In this document: piece by piece, positions 991 to 32,561 of the stretch
How the letters are laid out: the number at the start of each line of letters is the position of its first letter
Position numbering within the stretch: the stretch's first letter is position 1
Source of the DNA: Candidatus Tayloriibacteriota bacterium
GTDB taxonomy: Bacteria; Patescibacteriota; Minisyncoccia; Phycocordibacterales; PALSA-1337
DNA length: 32,561 nt
Assembly: GCA_903893855.1 (NCBI GenBank)
Contig: CAITNV010000054.1
Location: 1-32,561, forward strand
Direction: 5' to 3'
Made by a program: the position numbers and the translations under genes
Notes under the pieces: model-generated
Told to the model about the DNA's origin: nothing
Databases searched by the model: none
What the model saw: the letters and a program-made list of their open reading frames with translations, nothing else

Positions 991-2961
991 TTATATCCCA
1001 ATCTCTGGATACAACATCTCATCCTCATCCTCCTCAATCGGATAGTTGTTGTTTCTTTTTTCGTACACGAACGTCATCGCAATTGCATCAGGAATTGAAA
1101 TATCAACACCGTCTTCTTTTAGTGTTTCCTTGTCGATAATCTGCATGTTATTGTCATGCTCTTTCCAAGTGATATAGAGGAGATCATCAAAGCGGGGGCG
1201 GTTGAACAGCTTGCCACCGCCTCGAAGCCATTTTGCTAACTTTGCGAAACTAGCTGCATATAAATCTTCATAATGTCCATCACTACTAAACATATACTTT
1301 CTCGTAACATCGAGTCCGTATCTCTGTCGATTTTCATATTTATCAAGTATGAATTTACCCTCAGCATATTTTCTCACAAGTTTGCACAATTCAACTCCAT
1401 TACCGCTATCATCTATGAATATATTCTGGTCTGAAAGTGGCACTTCATATTGCTGTGCTAGTTCAACTACTTTTCTCGCCACTACATCTGGATCAGTCAC
1501 CATCTCGTAATATATTATCTCAGCTCCATTTTCGGTTCGAAGTACGATGGTTGAATGAGTCCTACGTGTATCTGCCAGTATCACACCGAGTATACCTTCT
1601 CCACGATACGGAATCTTTTCATGATAGCTGTCATTGAGTAACTTTTCATCAAAGAGAGAAAAATATCCCTTGTTAATTCTCGAATCTTGCTCAATGACGC
1701 TGAGTACTAATATGCCCAAAGCATCACAGAGGTCATCGTGTGTTTCGCTTCCAAATCCAAGAAGCTGTGTAATCAATTTCTCAGCACCCTTACGTGGGAA
1801 TACCACCGTGCCAGATTGTATGTGATTTGATACGAGTGACAGTCTCGCTCGTTTGTCACTTCCACCTGTCTTCCATTCCTTGGCAGGATATCCATCAGAG
1901 CGTAGTTGATCAACGATTGCTTTCTGGTATGCAACCGATTCAATCCACATGGATACAGGGACTCCGTTACCCAGAGTAGTAGAAAGTGATTTCACTCTTG
2001 ATATTGTTTCTGTAAAATCTAGTTGCTCGTTTATCGGATTCGCTAGTACATATATCTTCAGACTCTTTTTTCTACCGTAGATGTTTCCCGAGACTATCGC
2101 CGTCGAATCATTGTCGCTCTTCTGTCCAATAGCGGGATCTACCCCCATACCTGCATACCGAAGATTGTCATTTGTTGGTAACTCATCGTAATATTGTATC
2201 CATTCTTGACGTATCAGTTGAGTGTCATCCGAGACAATATTGAGCATATATTCTCGTTCCCATGCTTGGAGGCTGGGTACTGACTTTCTCAAGGTATCTA
2301 TATCAGTTTGCAGTGGAAACTTCTCAGGCCACATGGCAGTACCGTCAATATTGAGAAATGAGTATTTTTTAGTGATTCCATCCATTCGTCCCTCAATAAT
2401 GGCGTTTTTTAACTTCGTTATGAGAGAATCATGATGAAGTGCGGTACCGATGACTACAAGCCTCGTATCCTTGTCTCCAAGGGGCATTACATCACCTGTG
2501 AGCCATTTGAACATCTTGTCACGGCTTTCCTGAGTCTTAACGATATCCAAGTCCTCAAGGTCGTCACAGATGATCAGGTCTGGACGGTGTGCCCCGTGTT
2601 TGATACCACGAATTGAGCTTTCAATAGACGCTACGGTTATCCTCGCTCCATATTTAGGAAGCACAATACTTGTCGCTCTCCATCCATCATCTGGTTCCTC
2701 GAATGGTCCAAGATCGGATCTAAGAAGTCCGTTGGATTCCAATTCTATTTTTATGTTTGCTAAGTATTGTCGTGCTTGAGATTCAGTCTTTGCAATCATA
2801 AGCACAAACTTTTTCTGTTGTACTCCAAGTATCGACCAGATGGCATACGAAGTACCCATGATCGTGGTTTTTCCTGATCCTCTGAAGGCCTCTATCACCA
2901 CTGTCTTATCTTTCTCGTCTTCTGTGACTTCAAAGAGCTCTTTGTATCGACCAGATGGCAT
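991..2961 (-). CDS. terL: phage terminase large subunit, main ORF (656 aa), lacks native N-terminus because of duplication-induced frameshift
   Basis: Walker A FRGSGKTT, Walker B LIICDDLED, coupling-type motif LVVIGTALHHDS, RNase H-like nuclease motifs VDPAIGQKSDNDSTAIV and HDDLCDALG. Confidence 0.88.
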   Translation of the reverse strand: MPSGRYKELFEVTEDEKDKTVVIEAFRGSGKTTIMGTSYAIWSILGVQQKKFVLMIAKTESQARQYLANIKIELESNGLLRSDLGPFEEPDDGWRATSIVLPKYGARITVASIESSIRGIKHGAHRPDLIICDDLEDLDIVKTQESRDKMFKWLTGDVMPLGDKDTRLVVIGTALHHDSLITKLKNAIIEGRMDGITKKYSFLNIDGTAMWPEKFPLQTDIDTLRKSVPSLQAWEREYMLNIVSDDTQLIRQEWIQYYDELPTNDNLRYAGMGVDPAIGQKSDNDSTAIVSGNIYGRKKSLKIYVLANPINEQLDFTETISRVKSLSTTLGNGVPVSMWIESVAYQKAIVDQLRSDGYPAKEWKTGGSDKRARLSLVSNHIQSGTVVFPRKGAEKLITQLLGFGSETHDDLCDALGILVLSVIEQDSRINKGYFSLFDEKLLNDSYHEKIPYRGEGILGVILADTRRTHSTIVLRTENGAEIIYYEMVTDPDVVARKVVELAQQYEVPLSDQNIFIDDSGNGVELCKLVRKYAEGKFILDKYENRQRYGLDVTRKYMFSSDGHYEDLYAASFAKLAKWLRGGGKLFNRPRFDDLLYITWKEHDNNMQIIDKETLKEDGVDISIPDAIAMTFVYEKRNNNYPIEEDEDEMLYPEIGI

Positions 2962-3058
2962 ACGAAGTACCCATGATCGTGGTTTTTCCTGATCCTCTGA
3001 AGGCCTCTATCACCACTGTCTTATCTTTCTCGTCTTCTGTGACTTCAAAGAGCTCTTT
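2829..3058. repeat. perfect tandem duplication, 2 x 115 bp (2829-2943 and 2944-3058)
   Basis: Direct comparison: gtatcgaccagatggcatacg...caaagagctcttt occurs twice back to back; flanking bases differ. Confidence 0.95.
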
Positions 3059-3220: not shown

Positions 3221-3626
3221 CGGCTTTTTCTGTTACCACATCCTTTATCCCCAAAGCTTCACGTATGAGAGCTTCTTGCTCTGGGGTGAGAGGGTCTTCT
3301 TTTTCAATCGTCGCTTTCACCACGAGCTTGTTTCCATACTCTGGATGGTGTTGTCTGAGCCAAAGCTGTATCGCATGAAAGTTTTTGTCTTTAATCAAAG
3401 CAATGAGTTGTGATTCGCTCAAATCGTTAATCATTTCCTTGCCGTCTTTCATTGCATCATCAGAATCTTTTTTGAATTGATCGTCCTCGTTTCTCCATCG
3501 GTAATATGTGGGACGAGATATGTTGGTACGCTCACAGGCAAGTTGTATAATCGGAATCTTTTTCAGGTGCTCAAGGAGGATTTTCTTTTCAGCATCTTGT
3601 CTCTTTTGTATGGTTTCCTTTTTCAT
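3198..3626 (-). CDS. HTH domain protein, probable terminase small subunit (phBC6A51-like)
   Basis: N-terminal HTH (IIQLACERTNISRPTYYRWRNEDDQF), adjacent to and overlapping terL. Confidence 0.7.
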   Translation of the reverse strand: MKKETIQKRQDAEKKILLEHLKKIPIIQLACERTNISRPTYYRWRNEDDQFKKDSDDAMKDGKEMINDLSESQLIALIKDKNFHAIQLWLRQHHPEYGNKLVVKATIEKEDPLTPEQEALIREALGIKDVVTEKADEQSPQS

Positions 3627-4381
3627 ATTTCGATGGCTTTAATACCTGTTAATTTTTCAAAGCGATCTATTGCAGTCTTTACATATTCAGGATCAAGTTC
3701 AATACCGATACATAGTCTTTTCGTTTGTTCACATGCCAAGAGACAGGTGCCTGAGCCGAGGAAGCCGTCATACACCACATCGCCGATTCGAGTACTGTTG
3801 AGTATTAGATGGCGGATGAGTGGTACAGGTTTTGTCGTCGGGTGAAACGGACTTTTATTTGGCTTCGGGTGCACGATGACGCTTTTGTCTTTAGATTTTA
3901 GAAATTCATGCGTTCCGAACCATCCATATGCGATGAGTTCATGCATCGGGGCATAGTCCATTCTGCCAATGACAGCATGGGTTTTTACCCAAAATATGAG
4001 CTGAGCGAATTTGCATCCTGTTTGTAGCATTCCTTCACGTAAAGCGAATATCATCTTGTCTGAGTTGAAGATATAGAGCGCATTTTTCTTTTCTAAATGC
4101 GGAGTGATTGCATCGATCCATTCTTTCGTAAAAGTGATGTATTCTTCATCAGATTGGATGTGATCATTTTGAATGATTTTATCTTTCTTCAGTTTCTGAA
4201 AATTTCTTTTAGATTCAGTAACTGCTATGCCGTATGGCGGATCAATTATTACCGCTTTGATCTTCTGCTTGCCAATGACCTTGGCGACAAACTCTTTGTC
4301 TCTGCTGTCACCACACCCAAGAATGTGATCGCCGAGTTTCCAAATCGTCCCTGTCTTAATTGAGTTTTGTGACTTTTTCAT
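3623..4381 (-). CDS. DNA adenine/cytosine-N4 methyltransferase, beta-class (252 aa)
   Basis: Motif IV DPPYGIAV upstream of motif I DGFLGSGTCLLACEQ; ATGA overlap with the small terminase gene. Confidence 0.88.
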   Translation of the reverse strand: MKKSQNSIKTGTIWKLGDHILGCGDSRDKEFVAKVIGKQKIKAVIIDPPYGIAVTESKRNFQKLKKDKIIQNDHIQSDEEYITFTKEWIDAITPHLEKKNALYIFNSDKMIFALREGMLQTGCKFAQLIFWVKTHAVIGRMDYAPMHELIAYGWFGTHEFLKSKDKSVIVHPKPNKSPFHPTTKPVPLIRHLILNSTRIGDVVYDGFLGSGTCLLACEQTKRLCIGIELDPEYVKTAIDRFEKLTGIKAIEI

Positions 4382-30031: not shown

Positions 30032-30134
30032 TTAAAGGACATTTTTGATTTCAAACGTTGACTGGCAGTATTATAGCACACTATACACCATAAAGTCAAG
30101 CACCTATAAGTACCCAAAATTAACCCTCAAATGC

Positions 30135-30140
30135 TATACT
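30135..30140 (+). promoter_or_regulatory. leaderless promoter -10 (TGC-TATACT) of pilB
   Basis: TATACT-N6-ATG. Confidence 0.6.
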
Positions 30141-30146
30141 TATTGC

Positions 30147-31838
30147 ATGCTCCAATTTGACGAAGACAAACAAAATCGTAAAGTCGGCGACCTCCTCCAT
30201 CGCGAAGAAGAAGAGTTGGTCCAATTCCTCTCTACGAAGTACGGTATTGAATATGTAGACCTTACTTCTGTCGGTATTAACGGCGACGCTATTCGTCTTA
30301 TTCCCGAAGCAACCGCCCGCGAGATAAAAGCGGCAGTCTTTGCCCTTTCTGATAAAAAGATCAAGATTGCCCTTCGTAATCCCGACTCCGAACAAGCAAT
30401 GAATGTGATTAATGAGCTAAAAAATAAAGGCTACGTCCCTACCCTCTTCATAACGTCGACATTAGGCCTCGAGAAAGCATGGCTTACCTACAAGGACCTG
30501 TCTTTCGCTTCTGAATCGAAGGCTGGCTCTCTCGATGTTTCAAGCGACGAGATATCTGCCATCGTTAATAAAGCAAAAAGCCTTCCTGAGATTATTGTTA
30601 TCCTTGAAGATATATTGAAGCAAAAGAAAAGCTTCCGTGTCTCTCGTATTCTTGAGACCATTCTCGCAGGCGCGCTTGCAACAGGAGCATCTGACGTTCA
30701 TATTGAGCCCGAAGAGACATTCATTCATCTTCGCTATCGCCTCGATGGTGTGCTCGTTAATGTCATTGATTTTGATAAGGAGACTTACGACCTCGTGCTT
30801 TCCCGCGTGAAGCTCCTATCGGGACTTAAATTAAATGTAAAAAAGAATTCTCAAGACGGTCGTTTTAGTGTCCACGTTGCAGAAAATGACATTGAAATCC
30901 GTACATCGGTCCTCCCCGGTGCATACGATGAGTCTATTGTTATGCGACTTTTGAACCCGAAGAGCATCAGTGTCCCTCTTGAAAGCCTTGGTATTCCCCC
31001 AAAACTCCTTACGATTCTCCTGAAACAAATCGACCGTCCAAACGGCATGATACTTACCACAGGACCAACTGGCTCTGGTAAAACAACGACGCTGTATGCA
31101 TTTTTAAAGAAAGTTCGTGATCCGGGTATTAAAATTATCACGATTGAAGACCCGATTGAATATCACCTTCCGGGGATTGTTCAGACTCAGGTGAATGAAA
31201 AAGGCTACACTTTCCTCGAGGGACTACGCGCAGCTGTTCGACAAGATCCTGACATTATCATGGTTGGTGAGATCCGAGATAGCGAGACCGCATCTATCGC
31301 TATAAACTCCGCTTTGACAGGACACTTAGTATTCTCGACGCTTCACACCAACAATGCAGCAGGTACATTCCCTCGCCTCATAGATCTTAACGTGAACCCG
31401 AAGATTCTTTCTTCTGCGCTTACGGTGGTGCTTGCCCAGCGACTCGTGCGAAAGCTTTGTCAGTATTGTAAAAAAGAAGTTGTTCTCGAAGGACAATCAA
31501 AAACAGCCGTTGAAGCAATCATCGCTACGATATTCGACAAAAAAGAAATTCCAACACAAGACGGCTCCCCTGCTGGAACTTATACTAAGACTTGGCAAGC
31601 TGTTGGTTGTGAGAAGTGTAATAAAACAGGTTACAAAGGCCGTATCGGAATTTATGAAGGTATTCTTGTTGGTGATCCTGCGGTAGAAACGGTTATTGAA
31701 GTTAGCTCAAGCGAACGAGAAATCGCCATGGCTGCAACTCCACAAGGAATTCTAAATATGCAACAAGACGGAATGATAAAAGTTGTTCAAGGAATGACTT
31801 CAATCGAAGAACTTCGACGAGTTATTGATATTGATTAG
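30147..31838 (+). CDS. pilB: type IV pilus/type II secretion assembly ATPase PilB/GspE
   Basis: GPTGSGKTTTLYAFLKK, TIEDPIEYHLPGIVQTQVN, RQDPDIIMVGEIRDSETA, CxxC pairs (CQYC, CEKC); start corrected from 30045. Confidence 0.93.
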   Translation: MLQFDEDKQNRKVGDLLHREEEELVQFLSTKYGIEYVDLTSVGINGDAIRLIPEATAREIKAAVFALSDKKIKIALRNPDSEQAMNVINELKNKGYVPTLFITSTLGLEKAWLTYKDLSFASESKAGSLDVSSDEISAIVNKAKSLPEIIVILEDILKQKKSFRVSRILETILAGALATGASDVHIEPEETFIHLRYRLDGVLVNVIDFDKETYDLVLSRVKLLSGLKLNVKKNSQDGRFSVHVAENDIEIRTSVLPGAYDESIVMRLLNPKSISVPLESLGIPPKLLTILLKQIDRPNGMILTTGPTGSGKTTTLYAFLKKVRDPGIKIITIEDPIEYHLPGIVQTQVNEKGYTFLEGLRAAVRQDPDIIMVGEIRDSETASIAINSALTGHLVFSTLHTNNAAGTFPRLIDLNVNPKILSSALTVVLAQRLVRKLCQYCKKEVVLEGQSKTAVEAIIATIFDKKEIPTQDGSPAGTYTKTWQAVGCEKCNKTGYKGRIGIYEGILVGDPAVETVIEVSSSEREIAMAATPQGILNMQQDGMIKVVQGMTSIEELRRVIDID

Positions 31839-31849
31839 CGTTACGAAGC

Positions 31850-31881
31850 AGTAAAAGTTCTCTGTCAATTGAACTTTTACT
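31850..31881 (+). terminator. inverted repeat after pilB, terminator/attenuator candidate
   Basis: AGTAAAAGTTC-TCTGTCAATT-GAACTTTTACT, perfect 11 bp. Confidence 0.6.
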
Positions 31882-31902
31882 AAAGAGGAGTAAGATTGAT
31901 GC

Positions 31903-32110
31903 AGTTCTTCGAGAAGAATTGTATCGAGTACATGAATCTCTAAGCAATACTTTCAATGCGATCATCAAAAGTTAAACATAGCTCAAAGGATAACCCCAGT
32001 ACGCGCACACAGGGTGGCAACCAAAATGTCCTCAAGGCTATGTCAGATACGCGGAGTTAACCGCTTATATTGCTTAGAGATTTATGAACTTGATAGGGCG
32101 AATACAGCAA
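31903..32110 (+). ncRNA. candidate structured ncRNA with 6S RNA-like architecture
   Basis: 28-nt arms 31922-31949 / 32068-32095 pair at 27 of 28 positions (2 G-U, one A-A mismatch); inner stem ACATAGC/GCTATGT; 3'-bubble hairpin GCGG-AGTTAA-CCGC; strand and ends inferred. Confidence 0.55.
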
Positions 32111-32179
32111 AACTGCAACCGTTATTTACCAACACGTCAATATTCAGTTCGATAGGTATCCTAGCATATATTACATTTT

Positions 32180-32561
32180 ATGTCAAGTAAGATTATAGAA
32201 AAAGACAATGAAGAAAAGGACACTGTCCTTAATAATCCTGAGGCTTCACACCTCGATCAGACACTTCGTCCCAACCGATGGAACGACTATATAGGACAAA
32301 AAAATATAAAGGACAATTTACACATCCTCTTAAGTGCGGCCCAGAAACGTAAACATCCGCCAGAACATATTCTTTTTTATGGCCCTCCCGGACTCGGCAA
32401 AACCACGCTCGCCCACCTCATTGCCAAAGAGACCGGAACACAGATAAAGATCACTTCTGGACCTGCAATTCTTAAAGTTGGAGACCTTGCTGCTATTTTA
32501 ACGAACCTTTCTTCTGGAGATATACTTTTCATTGATGAGATACACCGGCTCAACAAAGCCA
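32180..32561 (+). CDS. ruvB: Holliday junction branch migration helicase RuvB, 3'-truncated by window
   Basis: [29 protein letters not shown]...[23 protein letters not shown]...SGPAI...[15 protein letters not shown]. Confidence 0.93.

Follow-up and report, generated by a model that had tools for sequence, protein, structure and literature searches.

The window analysed here, that is the whole stretch of 32,561 nucleotides from a Candidatus Tayloriibacteriota bacterium, contains only one close-armed long inverted repeat in its 32.5 kb, and the position of this repeat between pilB and ruvB raises the question of whether it encodes a structured RNA, on which strand, and what such an RNA might do. 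The earlier note had seen in it a candidate 6S-like RNA read from the plus strand, in which a long closing helix and an apical stem delimit a large open bubble. The computational analysis answers the first part of the question: the region contains a stand-alone non-coding RNA gene located on the minus strand, which has its own promoter and a P1–P4 fold and is kept across the order as well as in other orders. To our knowledge, the candidate phyla radiation (CPR), made up for the most part of uncultivated bacteria with minimal genomes, has yielded very few structured RNAs.

Fold and strand of the RNA

The arms had been placed exactly (31922–31949 and 32068–32095); read on the plus strand they pair at 27/28 positions, with two G-U pairs and one A-A mismatch. 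Also present are two smaller elements described in the earlier note, a small hairpin and the ACATAGC/GCTATGT apical stem, and the note's premise of a structured RNA between pilB and ruvB is strongly supported by covariation, promoter and breadth of occurrence. Compared with shuffled sequences, the fold energy of the 241-nt region yields a z of −5.97 on the plus and −4.91 on the minus strand, that of the exact minus-strand RNA a z of −6.74, and 0/200 shuffles fold as well as the real sequence.

Two alignments document the covariation of the helices. In the first and sequence-based one (A1, 30 sequences), two-sided changes are found in 44/63 pairs, a result matched by 0/500 shuffles, and the covariation score is 0.387 as opposed to ~0.1 with slid partners. 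In the alignment of 84 sequences, some rows of which are model-fitted so that structure is favoured, compensatory changes occur in 57/63 pairs and the doubly changed cells number 864, compared with 147–179 after a shift of the 3′ partners by 1–3 columns. The long stem, whose covariation among relatives the earlier note had proposed as a check, does covary: in the larger alignment P1, which consists of 26 nt per strand, displays two-sided changes in 24/25 pairs, with 94% of the cells paired, and P2 in 7/7 pairs, even if the latter hairpin is lost or nearly so in L080, L086, L088, L105, L108, L084 and L070. The order of the elements on the minus strand is P1–P2–P3–P4–P1, and the region enclosed by P1 forms a compact junction, three- or four-way, in which P2, P3 and P4 all covary (Table 1). 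The “large open bubble” is thus a product of reading the complement, since on the true strand this region is filled by the three inner elements.

The assignment of the RNA to the minus strand, and not to the plus strand as had been supposed, rests on three types of data: over all helices G-U cells outnumber A-C cells by 702 to 116; the consensus fold energy is −92 on the minus and −66 on the plus strand; and the covariance model built from the 84 sequences (R2; its predecessor R1 was built from 30) scores the RNA of the window with 143.2 bits (E 2.1e-41) on the minus and with 67.8 bits on the plus strand.

Table 1. Positions (in window coordinates) of the RNA, its elements, its transcription signals and the neighbouring genes
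Feature	Position	Strand	Properties and basis
Structured RNA core, 172 nt, P1–P4	31923–32094	−	5′ end 32094, 3′ end 31923; R1/R2 covariance models and covariation
P1 closing helix, 5′ strand AUCAAGUUCAUAAAUCUCUAAGCAAU	32069–32094	−	Inner part CUCUAAGCAAU nearly invariant; covariation
P1 closing helix, 3′ strand AUUGCUUAGAGAUUCAUGUACUCGAU	31923–31948	−	Covariation and fold
P2 hairpin	32047–32068	−	Variable, missing in some relatives; covariation
P3 apical arm	31976–32044	−	Near-invariant AGGAC (32032–32028) facing UAUCCU; conserved tandem G-U step (CUGG/CUGG-type)
P4 hairpin ACUUUUGAUGAUCGCAUUGAAAGU	31950–31973	−	Stacked between P3 and P1; many conserved G-U wobbles
Sigma70-type promoter of the RNA	32158–32186	−	TTGACA (32186–32181), 17-nt spacer, TGC extended −10, TAGGAT (32163–32158); overlaps the ruvB start codon
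Predicted 5′ leader	32095–32152	−	Between the inferred start site (~32151) and P1; from promoter position
TTGAAC-16-TAAGAT element	31869–31896	+	Conserved in ~8 close relatives
pilB	30045–31838	+	Convergent; flanks the RNA on its 3′ side
ruvB (beginning only; truncated by the window edge)	32180–32561	+	Divergent neighbour

Transcription signals, genomic position and distribution

The TTGAAC-16-TAAGAT element that had been taken for the promoter of the RNA lies on the wrong strand, the RNA's own promoter being located upstream of the other arm. A promoter of the type TTGACA-N16-18-TANNNT is present on the RNA strand in 98/101 loci, as opposed to 6 for the mirror strand and an expectation of 7.7 from shuffles, and 94 of these 98 promoter-bearing loci have an extended TG. 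Downstream, 18 loci have terminator-like hairpins followed by T runs on the RNA strand, compared with 1 in the mirror test. Of the 67 loci with long leaders, 9 carry, between promoter and RNA, a terminator-like hairpin with a U run (e.g., L018, L023, L114 and L055) that looks like an attenuator or a processing site. As to the plus-strand element, it is preceded by TGTCAA and GAGGAG, these too being conserved in the ~8 close relatives, and is likely a candidate promoter reading antisense across the RNA towards ruvB, thereby generating an antisense overlap.

The element is single-copy in its own genome, of 0.94 Mb, of which the contig of the window is a part. In ~85/90 loci ruvB is the divergent upstream and pilB the convergent downstream neighbour of the RNA, and the arrangement is identical in class-level relatives; this fixed position probably reflects vertical inheritance. 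In L100 and L102 pilB is no longer adjacent and the RNA is still found beside ruvB; in L111 the copy is inverted relative to pilB and ruvB, hence sense to the latter, and in L092 the RNA is tandemly duplicated (3414–3592 and 3613–3792), the structure being retained in both cases. The second copy of L092 has an altered P1 in which pairing is maintained, whereas the copies of L111 (3428–3649, 222 nt) and L054 (1501–1739, 239 nt) bear insertions. Elsewhere in the window, positions 2829–3058 consist of an exact 115-bp tandem duplication.

At the DNA level, the element was detected in 38/100 genomes around that of the window. With R1, matches were obtained in 204/247 genomes of the order, corresponding to 134/152 genera, there being usually one place per genome, since second matches mostly represent that same place on the opposite strand. 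Using strict filters, the R1 matches in a phylum sample (16/380) all fell within the order, and R2, when run sensitively, recovered 5/20 of the listed order misses (E<1e-7) and detected divergent copies in additional orders of the class (G367, G381, G335, G603, G410 and, weakly, G353), which occupy the same position between pilB and ruvB. Outside the class, which we take to be the Paceibacteria from the record titles and the GTDB taxonomy, a single marginal match was obtained in 40 genomes. The order genomes in which no copy was detected amount to ~15%, so that either the RNA is perhaps not essential or the model is too narrow. The named matches, over 117 stretches, belong mostly to Nomura-, Taylor-, Zambryski-, Vogel- and Adlerbacteria or to Paceibacterota bins, nearly all genomes being metagenome bins without strains. 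The pattern of the RNA also occurs in records labelled Burkholderiales and Gracilibacteria (L224, JAMPXW010000001.1, and L138, JAIPIK010000015.1, respectively), which are more likely mislabelled bins than cases of transfer.

Relationship to known RNA families

The Rfam comparison that the earlier note had proposed, with 6S and with all other families, gave no match: none was found for the RNA when the window was searched at gathering score, none among 4227 families when its region (371 nt) was searched at E≤10, and permissive thresholds applied to the window and to divergent relatives returned only matches at chance level. ARAGORN detected neither tRNA nor tmRNA in the window. The housekeeping RNAs expected in such genomes were likewise discarded as candidates: neither tmRNA (RF00023) nor RNase P RNA (RF00010/RF00011) matches at the RNA, and in the relative G054, whose genome is one contig, tmRNA and, by pattern only, an RNase P P4 signature are located at other sites. 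Over 700 kb of G054, Rfam recognizes tRNAs and tmRNA only, and the RNA described here is accordingly one of very few structured RNAs in that genome.

Comparative genomics has brought to light several orphan structured RNAs of bacteria, such as OLE, GOLLD, ROOL and raiA, which share with the present RNA a conserved structure and a function that is either unknown or of ribonucleoprotein (RNP) type but differ from it in size and architecture, and the absence of an Rfam match sets it apart from them. The RNA is not described in the literature on non-coding RNAs of CPR/Patescibacteria covered by our search, which took in few subscription journals, so that an earlier publication is possible. It appears to constitute a new, previously unclassified family, without match in the 4227 Rfam families.

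Bacterial SRP RNA (RF00169, RF01854) is also small and stand-alone and has a long hairpin arm, and SRP RNA was considered because Rfam finds none in the order (among genomes taken order-wide and phylum-wide, 0/31 for RF00169 and 0/21 for RF01854). This identity was rejected: Ffh is missing too, with no protein above cut-off in 16 order genomes or in a phylum sample of 145; the SRP domain IV core, with its symmetric and asymmetric loops and GNAR tetraloop, has no counterpart in the alignment of the RNA; and Rfam gives no match. The loss of SRP in Parcubacteria has already been published (PMC4508563). As SRP is absent from the lineage, this RNA is not its RNA, and an apparent tie of this RNA to the loss of SRP was dropped, SRP being missing from the whole phylum sample and not from the class alone.

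The comparison with 6S RNA (RF00013, ssrS) deserves more attention. Were the RNA 6S-like, whether by very distant descent from 6S or by independent origin as an analogue, it would mimic an open promoter, bind the RNA polymerase-sigma70 holoenzyme and damp transcription. The layouts do resemble each other: 6S RNAs, including those of other Patescibacteria classes (L234–L243), are likewise single-copy, stand-alone RNAs of ~150–190 nt with a strong sigma70 promoter, a long closing stem, an apical arm and a small hairpin 3′ of the centre. Furthermore, Rfam 6S is absent both from the order (0/31 genomes, control genomes being positive) and from the same-class genomes sampled in the phylum search, whose matches (14/192 genomes) all come from other classes.

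However, RF00013 matches neither the window at E≤10 nor 14 divergent loci at E≤5, and a 6S model made for the phylum (R3), which found the held-out L244 and L245 (E 3e-7 and 1e-3, respectively), recognized 0/28 loci of this RNA, a result to be read mainly as a test of sequence since the structure of R3 comprises 9 base pairs only. With the same model no 6S was found in one near-complete relative and in the window. In the reciprocal comparison, the best value given by R1 against the 6S loci was E 0.019, due to a short palindrome, and at a 6S locus proper it was 0.43, on the wrong strand. The anatomy also differs: the closing and apical stems of the 6S type are present, but the 3′ side of the presumed bubble is the hairpin P4, and in place of the long unpaired 5′ bubble strand of the phylum 6S RNAs this RNA has the hairpin P2 or a few nucleotides, the whole forming a compact junction. 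The CCCACCU...AGG 3′ hairpin motif of the phylum 6S is lacking, and the closing helix is conserved in sequence, whereas the closing stem of 6S is usually far less conserved than the helices seen here. Finally, none of ten folded phylum 6S loci lies beside pilB or ruvB, in contrast to the fixed position of this RNA. Membership of the 6S family, as had been suggested, is thus not supported by the Rfam model, the phylum-specific model, the bubble anatomy and the gene neighbourhood; the RNA may nevertheless act on RNA polymerase in the manner of 6S, and the 6S-like reading as a whole is unlikely. Concerning 6S itself, the Rfam matches of 12/14 genomes (L234–L245) are below gathering score and yet look genuine, as they share the CCCACCU...AGG hairpin, so that 6S is probably under-annotated in the CPR.

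Possible function of the RNA

If the RNA belongs to none of these families, what could be the reason for its conservation? An RNA that is kept in most genomes of the order, can be traced through the class at one locus and has a strong promoter must repay its cost. The reading that we favour, with a probability of roughly 0.55, is that this stand-alone minus-strand gene produces a trans-acting RNA that works within an RNA-protein particle. The promoter reads away from ruvB, and the product would operate as an RNP component. The faces that are conserved in sequence are nearly all double-stranded, namely P1 in its inner half, the AGGAC/UAUCCU internal loop and the tandem G-U of P3, and P4, a pattern such as the docking of a protein would leave, and the junction holds these faces together. 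Indeed, 38 of the 39 columns conserved at ≥90% are paired and 1 is unpaired, the longest conserved unpaired run being 2 nt, which argues for the recognition of a shaped double-stranded surface and against a base-pairing regulator. The partner would most likely be a general machine of transcription, translation or RNA turnover and not one confined to a single pathway, because genomes of 0.5–1 Mb keep very few other structured RNAs and because the promoter is strong; RNA polymerase, as in a 6S-like action, is one candidate.

The strict position of the RNA in the order and in class-level relatives, the overlap of its promoter with the ruvB start codon and the promoter-like plus-strand element that close relatives conserve on the opposite flank could all be accounted for by a regulation in cis, by which transcription of this RNA in antisense to the ruvB 5′ region would interfere with ruvB/pilB transcripts, or run against them, and the fold would merely stabilise the antisense RNA. 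This is improbable, because antisense action would not require a conserved fold of four helices and covariation specific to wobble pairs and because the RNA persists where it is inverted with respect to both genes (L111) or where pilB has moved (L100 and L102). Still less credible is a small RNA regulating mRNAs in trans by base pairing, for which the independent transcription unit, with its promoter and in some loci a terminator, would be suitable but which would find no seed in the conserved columns. A mobile palindromic element or a DNA-only terminator or cruciform, suggested by the long close-armed inverted repeat, can be dismissed in view of the single genomic copy, the vertical inheritance at one locus, the RNA-specific wobble covariation and the absence of the element from viral contigs (by exact pattern) and plasmid records.

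Returning to the RNP component, a more specific and somewhat less probable formulation, to which we give a little under an even chance, is that the RNA represents a new class-wide housekeeping RNA of the Paceibacteria, a large group with few cultivated members, residing in an RNA-protein particle and kept in genomes without SRP. The covariance model, the promoter and the boundary determined here offer a handle for metatranscriptomics and biochemistry, and the RNA itself a marker of the clade. Should the housekeeping role be true, the near-universal RNA machines of the lineage (rRNA, tRNA, tmRNA and RNase P) would be joined by one more.
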